Shown: positions 1 to 58,856 of the stretch, piece after piece
Numbering within the stretch: position 1 is the first letter of the stretch
Layout of the letters: each line of letters starts with the position of its first letter
Assembly (NCBI RefSeq): GCF_014397255.1
Contig: NZ_CP060724.1
Coordinates: 434,001-498,000, forward strand
From: Weissella diestrammenae
Lineage (GTDB): Bacteria > Bacillota > Bacilli > Lactobacillales > Lactobacillaceae
Reading direction: 5' to 3'
Length of the DNA: 64,000 bases
The notes under the pieces: model-generated
The model's database searches: none
What the model was told of the DNA's origin: nothing
Seen by the model: the letters and a program-made list of their open reading frames with translations, nothing else
Program-made: the position numbers and the translations under genes

Positions 1-1159
1 TACCAGTCGTTGGATCAAACAAACGTGCAATTAATTGGGCTAACGTCGTCTTTCCAGAACCGGTTGCCCCAACAATACCAATCATTTCCCCTGCATTCGC
101 TTTAAAGGAAATATCATTTAGTACAGCTTTCTCATCACCTGGATACTTGAATGAGACATGGTTAAAATCAACCGTCCCCTCTAATTCCTGATCAGGTGCT
201 TGTGCATCATATGTCATTGATGGTTCCGTTGACAAAACTTCACCGATTCGCTTAATTGATACTGCACCACGCGCAGCAAAAGTCATCAACATACCACCAA
301 TAATGATGGCCATCATGATTTGCATGAGGTAATTCATAAATGATGAGACACTAGCTAACATATCTGGATGTGTGCCAACATGTTGGCCAACATACCAAAT
401 TGAAACAGCGATTGCTAATTGGCCAATCAAGGTAAATAACGGCATAATAATTGAGAAAAGATACCCAATCGTGACATTCACATGATTCAATTCACTCGAT
501 GCAGTGTTAAAGCGCGCTTCTTCATTCGCTTCTTGATTAAATGATTTAACCACGCGAACACCTTGCATATTTTCCTTGGCTAAATTATTCGTTTTTTCAA
601 TCAAGCCTTGAATCCGACCAAAGAGTGGTCCCATTTTACTGAAAACACCCGCTGTAATCACTAATACCAATATAACCATTAAAATGATGACCCACCACAA
701 TTCTGGCAAAGTCATTAAAGCTAAAATGAGCGCCCCAATAAACAACATTGGCATCCGAATTAAAGCTTGAAATCCCATCATTACTAATGTTTGTACCTGT
801 TGCACGTCATTAGTCATTCGTACAACTAAGTTTCCAACTGAAAACTTCTCAATATCAGCAAATGAAAAACTTTGAATTTTACGATACGTACTCTCTCGTA
901 AATCAGCTGCGACATTCTGGGCAATCTTGGCCGCAAAAATAGCATTAATTGCACCAGCAATCAGACCGATGACCGCAATAATAATCAGCTGTAACCCGAT
1001 TTCGTTCACGCGTCCCATCTTATCATCTGTAATGGCTTGCATAACCCCTTGTAACAATTTTGGCTGCCACAACGAAGAACCAGCCATGATTGCAACCGAA
1101 ATAATTGCAATGAACATATCGCCTTTATATTTGCCCAAATAGGGCTTCAACAATTTCAT
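1..1159 (-). CDS. ABC exporter, fused permease/ATP-binding subunit (partial, 3' end outside window)
   Basis: Reading the minus strand from the ATG at 1157-1159 gives an unbroken frame to the window edge, so the C-terminus is missing. The N-terminal part carries several hydrophobic segments typical of a type-1 ABC exporter membrane domain. It is followed by the start of a nucleotide-binding domain with a clear Walker A (GATGSGKTT) and, just before the edge, ARLFDPTTG. The missing part should hold the Q-loop, signature and Walker B. An AGGAGA-like ribosome site precedes the start. In LAB such half-size exporters often work as heterodimers encoded side by side (LmrCD/YheIH type) for multidrug or peptide export; the partner would lie to the left. 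The substrate cannot be read from this fragment. Confidence 0.85.
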   Translation of the reverse strand, partial: MKLLKPYLGKYKGDMFIAIISVAIMAGSSLWQPKLLQGVMQAITDDKMGRVNEIGLQLIIIAVIGLIAGAINAIFAAKIAQNVAADLRESTYRKIQSFSFADIEKFSVGNLVVRMTNDVQQVQTLVMMGFQALIRMPMLFIGALILALMTLPELWWVIILMVILVLVITAGVFSKMGPLFGRIQGLIEKTNNLAKENMQGVRVVKSFNQEANEEARFNTASSELNHVNVTIGYLFSIIMPLFTLIGQLAIAVSIWYVGQHVGTHPDMLASVSSFMNYLMQIMMAIIIGGMLMTFAARGAVSIKRIGEVLSTEPSMTYDAQAPDQELEGTVDFNHVSFKYPGDEKAVLNDISFKANAGEMIGIVGATGSGKTTLAQLIARLFDPTTG

Positions 1160-3243: not shown

Positions 3244-3372
3244 TTTCTCTTCCCCCTACCTTTTTCTCTCTATATTGTATCATGCCGGCAAAACTCAATT
3301 GCGTCATATTCATATAAAATCTATTTCTATATTAAATATATGTAAATAAAACTGTTATTTACCATATGATGC

Positions 3373-3407
3373 TTAAAATGGTGGCAATCACCCACACACC
3401 ATTTTAA
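3373..3407. repeat. 11-bp inverted repeat in the leader of the glycosyltransferase cassette
   Basis: TTAAAATGGTG (3373-3383) and its perfect complement (3397-3407) flank a 13-nt loop in the 487-bp gap 3244-3730 between two divergent units. No T-tract follows on either strand, so it is not an obvious terminator. It could be an operator or an RNA hairpin. A second, looser pair (ATGATTGAA near 3469 and TTCAATCAT near 3512) lies closer to the gene. Nothing else is recognisable in this gap. Confidence 0.45.
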
Positions 3408-3677
3408 ATGTCAGACTGATCTTAGTCATGATTTCATTTCACAATATGCTCCAAAAATGAGGCGATGATGATTGAAATAAGGCATACTACACCACATTCA
3501 TCCCATTACATTCAATCATGCATTTCTTTTTCTCACATTTCAAACAAAATGATTCAAACCCCAGAAGGATGTATGACGATTAATAGATTTTTTTATGCGT
3601 CATTTTTGACTATTTCATTTTCAATTATCGCTTTTTTGTGAACAGTTAATGACTATTCTTTTTTACCGGAATTTATT

Positions 3678-3686
3678 TGCTAAACT
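3678..3686 (+). promoter_or_regulatory. Possible extended -10 element for the 3.7-7.2 kb cassette
   Basis: TGCTAAACT matches an extended -10 (TGN plus TAAACT) 44 nt before the start codon. No convincing -35 is present at the right spacing. A clear ribosome site AAGGAG (3714-3719) follows. Confidence 0.3.
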
Positions 3687-3730
3687 CTTCTTGTTAACAT
3701 CATTGCATTTACTAAGGAGCCTCTACCAAC

Positions 3731-5170
3731 ATGTTAAAAAATACAAAAAAAAATCTCAATTTAATCGAAAATACTCGTGACGGGCAATGGTGGACTGAAG
3801 ACCTCTACTTTGAAGCCTATGAACAGATTGAAGCCAGCCACACTAAGAAATTTCCCATCTTCATTCCTTCAATTGGCACGCCAAATGAACATTTTGGTCA
3901 TGTCCTTGCTAAAACTTTTACCAAAGAATTCAATTGGCCCATTTTTATCCTGACACGTGATTCTCAGCTTGACGCCTATCAAGATGCAATTAATTATTCA
4001 CCCTATGTCACGGTCTTATCACAACCAGATGCTACTATTTCTAATGCTGGCGCTAGTCGTAAATATATACAAGATTATGCCATCGGTGCTGGCCACGACT
4101 TCATTTTTATGTTTGATGATGACCTGTTTGAATTTAACATATTAACAAAAGGCGTTACCGAAAATGATTTCTTATATTCAAAAATTTCAGATTGTCGCAA
4201 TCAAGCACGAATTTTGGCCGTTTGGCAAGTCGCAACCCAATATCTCAATCAAAAATATGCTGTCAATGGCACGTTCCCAAACTATCATTCCGTTTCATGG
4301 CCCTATGAATATTCAACCGTTGAAAAAGGCATGACAACTTTTTCAGATTATTGCTCACAAGCTGTCTGCACGAATGTCTTAGAAACAGCAAATAATAAAA
4401 TATATTATCATGAAAACGATGAAGTCGGTCATGAAGACTGCGATTATTACGCACGCGGTTTAGACCGTGGTCTCATCTTTTCGCAACTTAAATTTTTAAC
4501 CTTTTCTGCCGAGGGAATGGACCTTGGTAACTTTACAATTGGTGCATCGCTAGAAGATCGTTTCTTCCAACAAATGACTGAATTTGTCAATGGTCCCATG
4601 AATTGGTTGAGTCGCCCATGGTTATACAATAAGCCAATGCTCGATGGCAGTATCGTCCCCGGTTATGATCTCAAAATGATTCGGGCATATCACAACATGC
4701 CGGCAAACTTTAAAATCGATTTAACTGAATTAAATCAAATTAATTTAAATCAGTCATTTGTACCTACGCCTAATCCCATTGAAGCATTAGGCTTTGAAAC
4801 ACTTGAAGCAGCATTATCAGCGCCTGCATCTGAACACAATCAAGACATCTTACTTGGTCAAGATGCTGGTCAACATCAAAACTATTTATTACGTTGGCAA
4901 GACCGCAATGATGAACTAGTAAATGATTTTTGGCGTAGTTTGCAATCAATTTGGTATAACCTCGATGAAACATACCGTGATCACTCACGCTATCCAAAAT
5001 TCATGACCCACATTTCTGAATTTTATTTCTCAAGTTTCTATTCTCATGAAGCCGGTTCACGTGACGAGTTAGGGATTCAGTCACAAAGTGAATGGGAACG
5101 TCTTAAAGAACGCGCCCTATTCAAATATCGTAATAAACACGGCCATGAAGCAATCATTTTTATCCCATAA
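3731..5170 (+). CDS. GT-A fold glycosyltransferase, TET-associated/GREB1-like type (inferred)
   Basis: This 479-aa soluble protein has no signal peptide or membrane segment. Its first 250 residues have the layout of a small GT-A nucleotide-sugar transferase: beta-strand FPIFIPSIGTP (41-51), IFILTRDSQ (71-79), NAGASRKYIQDYA (105-117), then FIFMFDDDLFEF (124-135) with an Asp triad at 129-131 fitting the metal-binding DxD motif. A late acidic motif GHEDCDYYARGL (233-244) resembles the catalytic ED segment of such enzymes. The order IPS...TR...R.YI..YA...FDDD resembles the TET-associated glycosyltransferase family; this assignment is from memory of motifs. Residues after about 330 show no known domain. 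The RBS AAGGAG is 11 nt upstream. It is followed after 24 nt by a PLP decarboxylase. Donor and acceptor are unknown. Confidence 0.7.
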   Translation: MLKNTKKNLNLIENTRDGQWWTEDLYFEAYEQIEASHTKKFPIFIPSIGTPNEHFGHVLAKTFTKEFNWPIFILTRDSQLDAYQDAINYSPYVTVLSQPDATISNAGASRKYIQDYAIGAGHDFIFMFDDDLFEFNILTKGVTENDFLYSKISDCRNQARILAVWQVATQYLNQKYAVNGTFPNYHSVSWPYEYSTVEKGMTTFSDYCSQAVCTNVLETANNKIYYHENDEVGHEDCDYYARGLDRGLIFSQLKFLTFSAEGMDLGNFTIGASLEDRFFQQMTEFVNGPMNWLSRPWLYNKPMLDGSIVPGYDLKMIRAYHNMPANFKIDLTELNQINLNQSFVPTPNPIEALGFETLEAALSAPASEHNQDILLGQDAGQHQNYLLRWQDRNDELVNDFWRSLQSIWYNLDETYRDHSRYPKFMTHISEFYFSSFYSHEAGSRDELGIQSQSEWERLKERALFKYRNKHGHEAIIFIP

Positions 5171-5194
5171 AAACACAACGGAGAGCCATTCATC

Positions 5195-6520
5195 ATGACA
5201 TTTACTACTCTAAATGCAAGTCAACTCATCAACAAAAAGCGTGCCCAAATTGCCGTCTTATCAGAAGAATTATTTCAATTAGAAAAGGAACAATTCATGA
5301 CAGACGCCACAATTGATGCGCAAACAAAAAAACAAATGCTAGACGATCTGACAACAGCTCAACAATTTGTTTTGACGGTCAATGAGCTTCGTACACATCA
5401 TCTGGGTTATCCCGGTAATTTCAAGCAGAACAGTCCCCTTTACCATCACTTCCGGCAATTAGAGGCAGAATTACCCCTGCTCAATAATATTGGTGATATT
5501 TTTGATGAAGGTAATGCCCGCCTCCATTCCAAAAAATGGGAACGTGACATTCTCAACTTATTCGCTGAAAAATTTGGACTGACAGACAACTGGTGGGGAT
5601 ATTTAACAAGTGGCGGCTCAGAATCAAACGATTGGGCGATTAATCAAGGTCGTTCATTACTACCCGACAGCATTTTTTATCATTCAACCGGGGCCCATTA
5701 TAGCATCACAAAGTCGAGTACCAATTTCATGAGTGAAGCCATTCCAACTTGTGGCCCTGATGACGAACGGATTAACGTTGACTTGTTAACGCAACGTATC
5801 CAAGAAAATTATGAACGCCTTGGTTTAGCGGCAAATATCGTCTTAACGTGGGGCACCACAAAATATGGTGCAATTGATGATGTTTGGGCGGTTAAAAAAT
5901 TTCTCATTGCACATCACATTCCACATTATTTACATCTTGATGCTGCCCACTTTGGTGGTATCCCTAACAATCAAATTGGGGCGCCAATCATTGATGACAT
6001 TCGTTCGCTTGGTGTGCATTCGATTTCTGTCAGTCTCCACAAATATATCGGGCTCCCCCAGGTAAAAGGTGTCTTATTGTCAGTTGAAGAACCTGCCACT
6101 CAAAATGCCGTGGATTACATCGGTCAAAAAGATACAACGAGTTGCGGTTCGCGTGATTTATTACCATTTTCAACCAAACAACAAGTCCTGGAAATGCTTA
6201 AATTATCCGATCCAAATGATTACCAACGCAATATTCGTTATTTTGAGGCACGCCTTAATGAACGCAAAATTCCATTCATTCGCTATGCCTACTCAAATAC
6301 ATTTGTCATTGCTGAACCATCATCTGAAATTTGTTCACACTATCAATTATCACAATTTAAAAATGATACCGGTCATAAAAAAGCACATGTTATCATTTTC
6401 CCGTATCAATCACAGGCACAACTACTTGCTCTAGCAAATGATTTAGCCAACGATTCTAAGGCACAGTCAGACATGACATTGAACTTCAAACAAAGGGTCC
6501 TTCAAACTAATGAATCTTAA
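5195..6520 (+). CDS. PLP-dependent group II amino-acid decarboxylase, histidine decarboxylase-like
   Basis: This 441-aa protein has the fold-type-I group II decarboxylase signatures. These are GYPGN (71-75) and INNVGD-like NNIGDIFDE near 97, GYLTSGGSESN (135-145), the PLP-stacking TGAHYS (165-170), LHLDAAHFGG with the PLP-binding Asp (247-256), and the Schiff-base lysine in SVSLHKYIG (278-286, Lys283). DTTSCGSRD (313-321) matches the family's SRN-type segment. These point to the histidine decarboxylase branch, not the glutamate or tyrosine decarboxylases usual in LAB, and LAB histamine formation normally uses the unrelated pyruvoyl enzyme. The substrate is unproven. RBS GGAGAG sits 9 nt before the ATG. 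The 3' end overlaps the next gene by 11 nt, which suggests translational coupling. Confidence 0.82.
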   Translation: MTFTTLNASQLINKKRAQIAVLSEELFQLEKEQFMTDATIDAQTKKQMLDDLTTAQQFVLTVNELRTHHLGYPGNFKQNSPLYHHFRQLEAELPLLNNIGDIFDEGNARLHSKKWERDILNLFAEKFGLTDNWWGYLTSGGSESNDWAINQGRSLLPDSIFYHSTGAHYSITKSSTNFMSEAIPTCGPDDERINVDLLTQRIQENYERLGLAANIVLTWGTTKYGAIDDVWAVKKFLIAHHIPHYLHLDAAHFGGIPNNQIGAPIIDDIRSLGVHSISVSLHKYIGLPQVKGVLLSVEEPATQNAVDYIGQKDTTSCGSRDLLPFSTKQQVLEMLKLSDPNDYQRNIRYFEARLNERKIPFIRYAYSNTFVIAEPSSEICSHYQLSQFKNDTGHKKAHVIIFPYQSQAQLLALANDLANDSKAQSDMTLNFKQRVLQTNES

Positions 6521-7163
6521 TGCAACTGCTGGTATACTAGCAACCATTCTTTCGTTTCTTACTTTTGCTTTTTTCGTTCCAAACCTGATTACCGGTGCAG
6601 CCAAAACTTCCGCCTATGCTTGGACTTTTTCGCTAGTTACTGCCGCCTCTCAATTAATTCTCATGGCCATGAGTCATGAGAATTTTGCTGGCTTACTCCG
6701 GCCATTGGCACTATGCTTTTGTATCAGTATTGTAGTGTTTGTTGCTTATCGTAAAGAAACAAATTCACCCACTCGGCTTGATTACATTTGTGGCACCATC
6801 GTTCTCATTGGTATGTTATTTGCCTTTTTTGGTCAACTTCTTTTAAAACGGATCGGTATTCAGACTTCCGCCCTATTTGCCGCAGACATATCATTATCCC
6901 TTCTAACGGCCCTGGCTATTCTACCTAATATAGCAACGATTCTCGGGATTAAAAAAGGAAATCATGAGATCCCACAAATCATTGCAATTGACGCTGTGGC
7001 CAGTCTCATGGGGCTTTTTGCCTTAAATATTTGGAATGTCTTTACTGTTTTCGGACCATTACTCATTATCATTTTAGATTTACGAACTATTTTATATGCC
7101 ATTTATTATAATGCACAACGTGAAAAAAACACTTTAGCTTTCAAAGAGAAACGCGATGTCTAA
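6510..7163 (+). CDS. Seven-TM membrane protein, PQ-loop/SWEET-like (inferred transporter)
   Basis: This 217-aa protein is strongly hydrophobic with about seven predicted membrane segments (roughly 8-27, 36-54, 62-80, 90-110, 120-142, 155-175, 177-198). Two related stretches, FFVPNLITGAAKTSAYAW near the N-terminus and ILPNIATILGIKKG near residue 138, look like the two proline-containing loops of a duplicated PQ-loop protein (SWEET, cystinosin-like). I infer, but cannot prove, a small-molecule transporter. Its ATG lies inside the decarboxylase stop region (11-nt overlap) and a strong terminator follows, so it is the last gene of the cassette. It may import the precursor or export the decarboxylated or glycosylated product. 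Confidence 0.6.
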   Translation: MNLNATAGILATILSFLTFAFFVPNLITGAAKTSAYAWTFSLVTAASQLILMAMSHENFAGLLRPLALCFCISIVVFVAYRKETNSPTRLDYICGTIVLIGMLFAFFGQLLLKRIGIQTSALFAADISLSLLTALAILPNIATILGIKKGNHEIPQIIAIDAVASLMGLFALNIWNVFTVFGPLLIIILDLRTILYAIYYNAQREKNTLAFKEKRDV

Positions 7164-7235
7164 ATAACGGATGCCTCTTTTATCAATCCGACCTGGGCAC
7201 TCATTCAGATTAATTTCATCTTAAATCCCCCCAGC

Positions 7236-7275
7236 AGGTCACAAAGCTACCATTAGCTTTGTGACCTACTTTTTT
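7236..7275 (+). terminator. Rho-independent terminator of the cassette
   Basis: A perfect 14-bp stem (7236-7249 with 7254-7267, AGGTCACAAAGCTA) with loop CCAT is followed by ACTTTTTT. It closes the three-gene cassette. Confidence 0.9.
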
Positions 7276-7590
7276 AGTACTACATTAGATCTAACAATCT
7301 ATTTGTTTTACCTTACTCAAACATCATTTTTTGACCAGTGATTCACGACATGCTTAAACAAATACTAACGGTGCCAACATCTGCAAAATCGTCAGAAATC
7401 CAACCACGCACCAATTTTTTAATGTCTTCACACACTTTAAAACCTAAATATTATCCGGCCTATCTGCTGATAGTTTTCATATCCACGACGGTTAACCTGG
7501 ATGAAGTAATACAGAAATTTGTAGCCTTTTTGTAGCCCAAAATTCAAAAAAGGCCCGAAACAATCAGAAGCCATCCATATCAAAAAAAAC
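7276..7590. other. Non-coding gap downstream of tRNA-Glu(CTC), possible decayed insertion
   Basis: No intact gene is visible. On the minus strand this is the DNA just past the tRNA 3' end, the usual target for integrating elements. A minus-strand stretch (about 7437-7560) reads as protein-like sequence containing GLQKGYKFLYYF and two near-repeats GGCTACAA, but no integrase motif is recognisable and no second copy of the tRNA 3' end was found. I treat it as an unidentified remnant. Confidence 0.3.
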
Positions 7591-7595
7591 ATAAT

Positions 7596-7637
7596 AAAAG
7601 CCGTCATATCAACAATAAACGTGATACAACGACTTTT
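7596..7637 (-). terminator. Terminator after tRNA-Glu(CTC)
   Basis: A long stem of about 16 bp with two or three G-U pairs (7596-7611 with 7622-7637) is followed on the minus strand by TTATTATG and then T8. Confidence 0.75.
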
Positions 7638-7654
7638 ACAGTATATATTAATTA

Positions 7655-7726
7655 TAGCCCAACAGGGAATCGAACCCTGGATTCCGCGCTGAGAACGCGA
7701 CGTCTTAACCACTTGACCATTGGGCC
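7655..7726 (-). tRNA. tRNA-Glu (anticodon CTC)
   Basis: The minus strand folds as a 72-nt cloverleaf. The acceptor stem is GGCCCAA/TTGGGCT (terminal G-U), the D arm GTC...GAC, the anticodon stem TCGCG/CGCGG with loop TTCTCAG giving anticodon CTC, and the T arm AGGG-TTCGATT-CCCT. The discriminator base is A and CCA is not encoded. It reads GAG codons; the other tRNA-Glu in this window has anticodon TTC. Confidence 0.95.
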
Positions 7727-7756
7727 ATTGAGTTATATTCTCAACAACAATAATTA

Positions 7757-7816: not shown

Positions 7817-9037
7817 TTACTTAATAATCATCTGATGTGGTTTCACCATTGTCACCGCAATGATCCATGCAATCCCATATAGAATCGCAATTGCGAGAAA
7901 GACCGTTTGGTAACCAAGGTGCATTTGATGAACAATCAAACTCGCTAGTTGATTGCCTGAAAGGCCTGCTGCGGCCCATGCTGTTAAAGCCAACCCATGA
8001 ATTTTTGAGATGGCGTTCATCCCAAATCGGTCACTCAACAAGGGGGGTAAGGCTGAGAAACCACCGCCATAACCAGCATTAATTAAGAAAAAAGTTATGA
8101 CGAATAAATAAGGTAACAACCCATTATTTTTCGGCATCCAATATGCTGCTAAACTCATCACGACAGACATGATGAAAATCAGGCGATAAACTGTATTCCG
8201 ATCTTTTAAATGATCAGACAATGTCGCAAAACCAATTCGGCCAGCTGCGTTAAAAAATGCATCAATACTGACAATTGTCGCGATGGCCCCACCTGTCAAC
8301 AAAACCGAGCCTTGTGGGGTTGTTAAACCAGATAAAATATCTTTTTCCTGTGAAATAATCGCTAGCCCAGCCGTGATATTCAAGTAAAACATCAACCAAA
8401 TGCCAACGAAAATTGGATTTTTCAAAAAAGCAATCGGTTGGAAACGATTTTTTAATGGCTTTTCTACCCAATCTGCAGGTTTACGAATCAAAGCCGTCCC
8501 GATTAGCATCATCACAGCAAAAATGCCCGCTAAAATAATGAACATTTGCCATAAACCAACCCGATGTTGGAGTGCCATCATCACTGGAGAAAAAATCATT
8601 TTCGCTAAACCAAACCCAGCCACAGCCAAGCCAGTGCCCAAACCTTTATTATCTTTGAACCAAAGCATTAAGTTTTTAACCGGGGTTAAATATCCAATTC
8701 CCAAACCAATCCCCATAATGACGCCATAACAAAGATAGATACCAAATAACGAGCGATAATAAATACTAATCCCTGTTCCGATCATACCAACCACAAAGAA
8801 CAGGGTTGATAAACGAGCCGATTGCTTAATGTCTTGCTCCACAAAATGACCCAATAGTGCTGCCGATAGACCCAAGAATAAAATTGCGAGTGAAAATGCC
8901 CACTCAACTCTTGGTACACTCTGACCAATATAATCAGCAATCGCTTGTTTGAAAACACTCCACGCATAAACCGTTCCAATACTACCATGAATTAATAGCG
9001 CTGGTAATGCTGCTCGAACCCATTTATTATCCATCAT
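7817..9037 (-). CDS. MFS transporter, OFA (oxalate/formate antiporter-like) family
   Basis: This 406-aa protein has 12 predicted membrane segments. It starts with the OFA-type signature LIHGSIGTVYAWSVFKQAI (about residues 15-33) and has the family's loop YLTPVKNLMLWFKDNKG near residue 120. OFA members are major-facilitator carriers for small carboxylates (oxalate/formate in Oxalobacter, other monocarboxylates elsewhere); in LAB the substrate is usually unknown. It stands alone between tRNA-Glu and exoA. A perfect 16-bp palindrome lies 73-116 nt upstream of the start, so regulation by a dimeric repressor is likely. Confidence 0.85.
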   Translation of the reverse strand: MMDNKWVRAALPALLIHGSIGTVYAWSVFKQAIADYIGQSVPRVEWAFSLAILFLGLSAALLGHFVEQDIKQSARLSTLFFVVGMIGTGISIYYRSLFGIYLCYGVIMGIGLGIGYLTPVKNLMLWFKDNKGLGTGLAVAGFGLAKMIFSPVMMALQHRVGLWQMFIILAGIFAVMMLIGTALIRKPADWVEKPLKNRFQPIAFLKNPIFVGIWLMFYLNITAGLAIISQEKDILSGLTTPQGSVLLTGGAIATIVSIDAFFNAAGRIGFATLSDHLKDRNTVYRLIFIMSVVMSLAAYWMPKNNGLLPYLFVITFFLINAGYGGGFSALPPLLSDRFGMNAISKIHGLALTAWAAAGLSGNQLASLIVHQMHLGYQTVFLAIAILYGIAWIIAVTMVKPHQMIIK

Positions 9038-38486: not shown

Positions 38487-39601
38487 TTAATCAGGGTTTA
38501 ACAGACCTAGTTTCCACTGTAGGTAGGCATTCATGAAACCATCTAAATCGCCATCCATCACCGCTTGCGGATTACCACTTTCATAGTTTGTCCGATGGTC
38601 TTTCACCATGCGATATGGTTGAAAAACATACGACCGAATTTGTGAACCCCATCCATTTTCAAGGTGTTCACCAGAAATTTCAGCCCGTTCGGCTTCTTTT
38701 TTATCCATTTCCAATTGATACAGTTTTGCCCGCAACATACCATAGGCTGTATCTTTGTTTTGAAATTGTGAGCGCTGCTGTTGTGATGCGACAACAATTC
38801 CGGTTGGTATATGTGTCAATCGCACCGCTGATGATGTTTTATTAATGTGTTGCCCACCAGCACCAGACGCACGATACACGTCCATTTTAACATCAGCCGG
38901 GTTAATATCAATGGTGACAGAATTATCTAATTCAGGCATCACGTCAATTGACACAAACGACGTATGCCGGCGTCCTGCTGAATCAAAGGGCGAAATGCGA
39001 ACAAATCGATGAACTCCGCGTTCTGAACGTAAGTAACCATACGCATTGTGTCCAGAAATCATCAAAGTCACCGAATCAACCCCGGCAACATCCCCGGGGT
39101 GATAATCCATAATATCAACTTTAAAGTGATGCTTTTCTGCCCATCGCGTGTACATCCGTTGCAAATTAGCACCCCAATCAGCGGACTCAGTCCCCCTGAT
39201 CCGGGATGGATTTCCAAAATCGCATTACTGTTGTCATACGGTTCATTTAATAACTGTTCAAGTCGATAACTTTCAAGATTTTGTTGTAATTGATTCAGTT
39301 CATTATCTAATTCAGCTTCTAATTCATCATCTGGCATCTCAGCCAATAATTCGATAGTTGTTGCAACGGATTCAATCCCATCCGTTAACACTAAATAATT
39401 GTCACGGCGCTGTTTTAATTCATTGTTGGTATCAATAACCGCTTGGGCAGCAACATTGTCCTGCCAGAAATCGGGATGTGCCATTTCATCTTCATTTGCC
39501 GCAATCTGATCTGTTAACGCATCTAAATCTAGATTTTCACCAAGATGCGTAACTTCTGCGCTAATCTCATTCAATTGATTCCGTGCATCCGCTAAAGTCA
39601 T
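38487..39601 (-). pseudogene. prfB: Peptide chain release factor 2, single-base frameshift (probable sequence error)
   Basis: The first frame runs from MTLADARNQL (ATG at 39601, AAAGG upstream) to the conserved LEIHPGSGG and then goes out of frame. The second frame resumes with [16 protein letters not shown] and continues to the end, including the peptidyl-tRNA hydrolysis motif [15 protein letters not shown] (GGQ) and an SPF anticodon-like motif for UGA. The break is at the G5 run 39192-39196, where GGN-ACT needs one more base. RF2 is essential, so a base missing from the consensus is more likely than a null gene. The usual programmed +1 frameshift near codon 25 is absent: VTHLGENLDLDALT is continuous with no in-frame TGA. 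Confidence 0.9.
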
Positions 39602-39709
39602 ACTGATTTGCCTTTCTACCATTCATTCACAATACTGGTTTTATTCACTGTCAAACACACCTTTAAACACAAAAGGAAAGTCACTCGGACCTTCCTGTTG
39701 TGACCAGCA

Positions 39710-55698: not shown

Positions 55699-55726
55699 AA
55701 AAAATCCCCATCACTGGGGATTTTTT
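55699..55726 (-). terminator. Terminator of murA
   Basis: Perfect 12-bp stem AAAAAATCCCCA/TGGGGATTTTTT (55699-55710 with 55715-55726), TCAC loop, reaching the murA stop codon. Confidence 0.85.
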
Positions 55727-56993
55727 TAATCTTCTTCATCAATGATTTCAATATCACCATTCAACTGGGTTATTTTTTGAATTAAATGATCATAACCACG
55801 TAGAATGTGTTCTGAATTTTTAATAATTGTCACCCCATCTGCCATCAAACCAGCGATGACTAATGATGCACCGGCTCGAATTTCAGCTGCGGAAACTGTT
55901 GTGCCAACAAAGCTCGAACTTGGTCGAATGGCAATTAATCCATGCGATAAACTTTCGATGTCCATCCCTAATTTATTCAATTCAGAGATATGGCGTGTCC
56001 GCTCTGGATAGATTTCTTCAGTGATAACACTCTCGCGCGCAGCCAATGATAACAGTGGTGTAATCGGTTGCTGTAAATCGGTTGCAAATCCAGGAAATGG
56101 TGCCGTTTTAATCTTGATGGCCTTTAAATCTGTTGTTTTGGGCACAAAAATACTATCTTCGCGAACGTCAAGCGCAACGCCTGCTTCCATCATTTTCGCA
56201 ATAAAGGCATCCAAATGTTCTGGAATAATATTTTTCACCAATACACCGTCGCCCTGTGCGGCAGCCATTGATAAATAAGTTCCAGCTTCAATTCGATCTG
56301 GAATAATCGTATGCACGTTATGTGATTCTAAACGATTGACACCAACAATCCGAATTGTATCTGTACCAGCACCCCGAATTTTTGCCCCCATATTATTTAA
56401 AAATGTGGCTAAATCAATGATTTCTGGCTCTTTTGCGGCATTTTCAAGAATTGTCGTGCCTTCTGCACGCACGGCAGCCAAAATAATATTAATCGTTGCA
56501 CCAACTGAGACCATGTCTAAATAAATCCGCGCGCCATGTAAGCCATTGGGCGAGGTAATCCGGACTGTATCATCATCATATTCAACTTCAGCCCTAATGC
56601 CTCAAATCCTTTGACGTGTTGATCAATCGGACGCGGCCCGATATTATCTCCACCAGGAAATGTCACCACAGCTTGACCAAATTTTCCAAGCAATGAGCCC
56701 ATAAAATAATATGACGCACGTAAACTTTTAATTGCTGTCGAAGGCAACTCCGCTTCACGAATCTGAGTCGGATCGACTGACAATTCACCACGTGCAAATG
56801 ATGAAGTCACATTCATTGACTCCATAATCAGCTGTAAATTGTAGACGTCTAAAATATCAGGGACACTATCAAATTTAACCTCAGTATCTGCAAGAATTGA
56901 CGCTGGAATGAGCGCGACTGTTGAATTCTTTGCACCACCGATTGTCACTTCACCATGCAAGCGACGGCCACCATGAATAACCAGTTTTTTCAT
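55726..56993 (-). pseudogene. murA: UDP-GlcNAc 1-carboxyvinyltransferase MurA, single-base frameshift (probable sequence error); Asp in place of catalytic Cys
   Basis: The first frame (from MKKLVIHGG, 56993) is MurA up to HVKGFEALG, then shifts. Restoring one G in the run 56592-56594 gives [20 protein letters not shown] and joins the second frame ([17 protein letters not shown]...) without a gap, giving about 423 aa, normal for MurA. The enzyme adds enolpyruvate to UDP-GlcNAc, the first committed step of peptidoglycan synthesis. The catalytic loop reads [13 protein letters not shown]: the usual Cys (GGC) is Asp, a change that makes MurA insensitive to fosfomycin in other bacteria. It lies 220 nt after pyrG; a second murA paralogue is not in this window. 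Confidence 0.88.

Positions 56994-57213: not shown

Positions 57214-58856
<1,643 letters not shown>

Follow-up and report, generated by a model that had tools for sequence, protein, structure and literature searches.

A compact three-gene operon beside tRNA-Glu

The window analysed here is a 64,000-nucleotide stretch of the Weissella diestrammenae genome, which is 1.66 Mb in size, assembled as a single contig and 99.96% complete. It contains a cassette of three plus-strand genes (Table 1) separated by a 24-nt gap between genes 1 and 2 (5171–5194) and joined by an 11-nt overlap between genes 2 and 3 (6510–6520), so that the tight spacing described in the initial annotation is exact and its coordinates were reproduced. 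The single terminator and the orientation opposite to both flanks, which that annotation also reported, were borne out, the neighbouring genes on either side being encoded on the minus strand. Shine-Dalgarno-like sequences precede gene 1 (AAGGAG, 3714–3719) and gene 2 (GGAG, 5180–5183). A scan of the upstream intergenic region yielded no convincing sigma-70 promoter on the plus strand, and an Rfam scan returned the tRNA as its sole match. Tight spacing, the overlap and a single terminator indicate that the three genes probably form one transcription unit and, given the overlap, gene 3 is probably translationally coupled to gene 2. Judged from its sequence, the cassette appears to be a real, intact and rare operon that brings known enzyme families into a new combination.

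Table 1. Features of the cassette and its surroundings (nucleotide positions are those of the window; residues are those of the encoded protein).
Feature	Position	Strand	Description
Variable cargo site of the genus	3244–7653		pgm to tRNA-Glu
hflX and pgm		–	Flank on one side
Upstream intergenic region	3244–3730	+	487 bp, AT-rich, 31.4% GC
Gene 1	3731–5170	+	ATG start, intact ORF, 479 aa
Gene 1 core	residues ~41–252		DDD129–131, ED235–236
Gene 2	5195–6520	+	ATG start, intact ORF, 441 aa
Gene 3	6510–7163	+	ATG start, intact ORF, 217 aa
PN motifs of gene 3	residues 9–27 and 129–147		In two hydrophobic segments
Intrinsic terminator	7236–7267	+	14-pair stem, 4-nt loop, T-run; strong
tRNA-Glu(CTC)	7654–7727	–	3' end towards cassette; border of variable site
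MFS gene	7817–9037	–	Flank on the other side, beyond tRNA-Glu

The cassette occupies a variable chromosomal site

In sister species, the gene order at this site is hflX-pgm-tRNA-Glu-exonuclease, and in at least nine of them the site is empty, pgm and the exonuclease gene lying 400–570 bp apart with tRNA-Glu genes between them. It is also empty in one further relative locus (L044). Other relatives carry different cargo (assigned by eye): an MFS transporter between pgm and tRNA-Glu in the nearest relative (L040), and a sugar-acid-type metabolic cluster of regulator, kinase, dehydrogenase and transporter in L041 and L042. Since the sister sites are either empty or filled with other cargo, the cassette lies at a variable site whose border is the 3' end of a tRNA gene. 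No integrase was seen, no convincing att-like repeats flank the cassette, and models of anti-phage systems gave no match. The GC content of the cassette (38–40%) is close to the window mean (40.3%), and the genes therefore look settled rather than freshly arrived. The nearest relative has in addition a second cargo block between the exonuclease gene and tRNA-Glu (L040:6680–11630), with ORFs assigned by eye as HerA-like ATPase, NAD(P)H-oxidoreductase-like, triosephosphate-isomerase-like and CinA-like.

Gene 1 resembles phage TAGT glycosyltransferases

Gene 1 matches the Pfam family TAGT (PF20691; E=4e-7, 30.6 bits vs a curated cut-off of 27.5), scores 32.3 bits with this profile in a search of its own genome, and matches phrog_842, the PHROGs beta-glucosyl-HMC-alpha-glucosyltransferase family (E=4.4e-8). 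By hhalign against six phage TAGTs, the match has a probability of 94.8% (E=5e-8) over residues 40–144. The invariant TAGT core (P..PS, R, DDD, ED), defined by alignment with six phage TAGTs, is retained in full (P42, P46, S47, R110, D129–131, E235 and D236). In a published AlphaFold3 model, TAGT adopts the GT-A fold and lies near GT2 (PMC13216743). We take the fold of gene 1 from its family because its own single-sequence structure model was too poor to use (pLDDT 35). By family membership, gene 1 is predicted to encode a GT-A-type glycosyltransferase, its fold resting on homology, and the earlier GT-A claim is probably right on these grounds (PMC13216743).

Known TAGT members include the beta-glucosyl-HMC-alpha-glucosyltransferase of phage T6 and gp47 of Microbacterium phage Chepli, and solitary TAGTs are carried by many phages (PMC13216743). 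Gene 1 shares with the family the P-S, R, DDD and ED residues and a score above the Pfam cut-off. Unlike phage TAGTs, it lies on a bacterial chromosome, and its 479 residues include ~140 extra C-terminal ones; residues ~340–479 matched no known domain. Identity to the phage members is only 17–19% over the multiple alignment, and tblastn with gene 1 retrieved five Microbacterium phages only, with matches that cover part of the first domain at 27%. In two of the compared loci (L010 and L143), TAGT has thymidylate-synthase-like, nucleotide-kinase or hydroxymethylation genes next to it, whereas the window lacks such phage DNA-hypermodification neighbours. No membrane anchor is obvious in gene 1 by inspection.

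Residues 364–417 of gene 1 (4820–4981) resemble, over a short stretch, the metal-binding motif in the C-terminal part of Fe/Mn superoxide dismutase (37–39% over ~54 aa, with its D and H both aligned). This candidate was rejected: PDB matches reached only E ~0.1, PF02777 did not match gene 1 even at E<=10, and the pairwise E of 6e-7, being the best of 399 genomes, is at about chance level.

Gene 2 encodes a divergent group II PLP decarboxylase

Gene 2 matches PF00282 (E=3.8e-7), and its best PDB match is a chain deposited as serine decarboxylase (1.6e-32). With the histidine decarboxylase (HDC) model NF002748 it scores 199.1 bits, below the equivalog cut-off of 305. In an alignment of 84 relatives, the PLP lysine (K283), D249, the stacking histidine (H168), R320 and the proton-donor tyrosine of the catalytic loop (Y308) are unchanged. 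Tyr308 corresponds to Tyr336 of CsAlaDC, as counted from the aligned 8jij chain, and this loop tyrosine is needed for decarboxylation (PMC11407765); its presence in gene 2 therefore argues for true decarboxylation. The choice between serine (Tyr) and alanine (Phe) is set by the residue after the GYP motif (PMC11407765), a position occupied in gene 2 by Gly74, so neither serine nor alanine is predicted as its substrate.

Lys283, His168, Asp249 and the loop Tyr308 are shared with bacterial histidine decarboxylase and plant serine decarboxylase (8jij, 8jg7). Gene 2 differs from these enzymes in its ~30% identity to its nearest relatives, its longer N-terminus, Gly74 at the substrate-specificity position, the change of SGHK to SLHK and a deletion after residue 321. 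Against the 84 relatives, it departs from family-invariant residues at G281L, P290V and W324P as well as at this deletion, and in the tree it stands alone on a saturated branch whose exact placement is unreliable. With all catalytic residues present, gene 2 is placed among the group II PLP decarboxylases, in the histidine/serine-decarboxylase family. The initial annotations of genes 1 and 2 were thus correct at superfamily level (Pfam, PHROGs, HDC model and PDB matches), and the pairing of a glycosyltransferase with a decarboxylase stands, as a TAGT family member and a PLP decarboxylase relative. The more specific label "HDC-like" is upheld for the family and fails below it, the score lying under the HDC cut-off and the residue known to confer serine or alanine specificity being absent.

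A separate observation concerns a locus labelled Acinetobacter phage MD-2021a (L005), in which the neighbours of hdc are genes for isochorismatase and an ABC transporter (ybtP-like); the entry appears to be a siderophore cluster of bacterial origin that was filed as phage.

Gene 3 encodes a small membrane protein

A hydropathy scan of gene 3 gave six clear hydrophobic segments, with seven possible. In its small size, its 6–7 helices and the PN motifs in two of them, the product is like the small carriers of PQ-loop/SemiSWEET type, and it differs from them in lacking a profile match at the thresholds tried: the PQ-loop profile PF04193 gave no match at E<=10 in a search of the own genome and none by hmmscan. 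The earlier PQ-loop-like label, for which only hydropathy and the two PN motifs speak, was a reasonable guess but is supported by no profile. Nor was a credible match found to any profile, PDB chain, phage or plasmid. Matches in other Lactobacillales (E 0.003–0.1) were discarded as noise, several of them crossing stop codons, and a structure model made without an alignment had a low pLDDT (53) and was not used to judge whether the protein has the two triple-helix bundles of PQ-loop transporters. Gene 3 is best described, from its sequence, as a predicted integral membrane protein of no recognisable family.

A single known instance

Gene 1 was sought in samples of the family (401 genomes), the order (398) and the phylum (399), which overlap in part, and was present only in its own genome, the sole weak match elsewhere being the rejected superoxide dismutase. 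The TAGT profile matched only the own genome among 200 of the phylum, and at E<=1e-10 gene 2 was confined to its own genome among 251 of the family. Neither the trio nor gene 1 turned up a second time in ~1,100 sampled genomes, 50,697 phages and 72,556 plasmids; these distribution searches are of limited sensitivity and would miss distant relatives, and some collections may leave out records very near to the genome of the window. A scan of genome contigs with gene 2 patterns, built from an alignment of gene 2 with two artificial scrambled sequences that keep chosen motifs and serve as search patterns only, not as evidence, recovered generic HDC/SDC relatives at 28–33% identity. Of the genome-contig relatives of gene 2, the best 80 had neither gene 1 nor gene 3 as a neighbour. 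Viral-contig scans and a genome-contig scan whose query combined parts of genes 1 and 2 returned nothing.

The initial annotation had named a lack of conservation of the trio as neighbours in other genomes as a finding that would refute its reading, and the outcome was unfavourable to it, no other instance being found. Because the searches recovered no close relatives of the individual genes either, this outcome reflects a lack of comparators and does not prove that the association is broken. With the trio known from this genome only, there is one instance on which to base co-function, and it allows no comparative test.

A proposed function and its alternatives

Our preferred reading, which we hold tentatively at a probability of about 0.35, is that the cassette is an accessory operon at the pgm/tRNA-Glu site through which an amino acid is decarboxylated and its product then glycosylated and moved. 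Gene 2 would convert an amino acid, or an amino-acid-like compound, to an amine; gene 1 would transfer a sugar from a nucleotide-sugar to a small acceptor, in the simplest case the amine itself or its conjugate; and gene 3 would move substrate or product through the membrane. The operon anatomy, the families of genes 1 and 2, the catalytic residues and the variable-site location are supported by the sequence. We infer that the three genes share one molecule; which way transport runs, and which amine and sugar are involved, are likewise conjectural. The idea that a small amine or amino-acid-derived product is made, moved and possibly glycosylated was part of the initial annotation: its enzyme chemistries are sustained by the sequences, while the product and the coupling stay inferential. 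Against a single pathway, the TAGT enzymes whose products are known modify DNA bases, gene 3 has no recognisable family, and no substrate can be predicted.

Lactic acid bacteria commonly pair a decarboxylase with a transporter, and genes 2 and 3, which the 11-nt overlap ties more closely than genes 1 and 2, could form such a pair on their own, serving acid resistance or energy through a non-classical small carrier, with gene 1 a separate matter. The coupling of a decarboxylase gene to a membrane-protein gene is indeed like that of the decarboxylase/antiporter operons (hdc, tdc and gad), from which the cassette differs in its type of transporter and its extra glycosyltransferase. Known decarboxylase partners are 12-helix APC-type antiporters, unlike the 217-residue product of gene 3 with 6–7 helices, and gene 1, the first of the operon, would be left unexplained; we consider this pairing rather unlikely. 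We give similarly little credence to the decoration of a cell-surface or secreted glycan, in which an amine or sugar would be placed onto an envelope polymer with gene 3 as carrier or flippase. TAGTs cluster beside GT2-type GT-A enzymes, implying cellular ancestry (PMC13216743), the operon includes a membrane-protein gene, and cargo of a variable site would suit a variable surface trait, but no polysaccharide, teichoic-acid or lipid-carrier genes were recognised in the immediate neighbourhood and gene 1 has no obvious anchor.

The closest named families of gene 1 act on phage hydroxymethylcytosine, which would suit glycosylation of DNA or RNA by gene 1, which may have been domesticated from a phage; an amine used in hypermodification would then come from gene 2. 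Phage TAGTs have thymidylate-synthase-like, kinase and helicase genes as neighbours; the cassette has none of these and, apart from the family of gene 1, no phage or defence genes, and a membrane protein fits poorly, making this the most improbable of the readings considered. It is also quite unlikely, though less so, that the cassette has no coherent pathway and consists of three unrelated cargo genes at a variable site, at least one of them without present function. The single known instance, the saturated branch of gene 2 and its G281L, P290V and W324P changes against the 84 relatives would agree with this; retention of all catalytic residues argues against it, as do three intact frames with tight spacing and start signals, though other genes of the window look frameshifted.

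Returning to glycosylation and transport of an amine, a stronger form would be an undescribed pathway in which a TAGT-type enzyme, of a kind known to date from phage DNA modification, is repurposed to glycosylate the amine from a decarboxylase of new specificity, served by an orphan transporter family and yielding a new class of glycosylated amines, which we regard as doubtful. The TAGT enzymes known so far come from phages, and many of these have no assigned acceptor; a chromosomal member that shares an operon of only three genes with a decarboxylase makes a role away from DNA open to test. Amine formation by lactic acid bacteria bears on food safety and gut signalling. The hdc of lactic acid bacteria is pyruvoyl-dependent, and the enzyme of gene 2 would escape the usual pyruvoyl hdc screens.

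Interrupted genes elsewhere in the window

Other genes of the window look interrupted or incomplete. prfB (release factor 2; 38487–39622) is split mid-gene into two ORFs in different frames, probably through an assembly indel error because RF2 is normally essential. A murA-like gene (55726–56993) is split into two ORFs and is a single 421-aa ORF in one relative (L043), and the CTP synthase ORF (57214–58485) seems to be without its N-terminus; assembly indels are a more likely cause of these two breaks than real pseudogenes.
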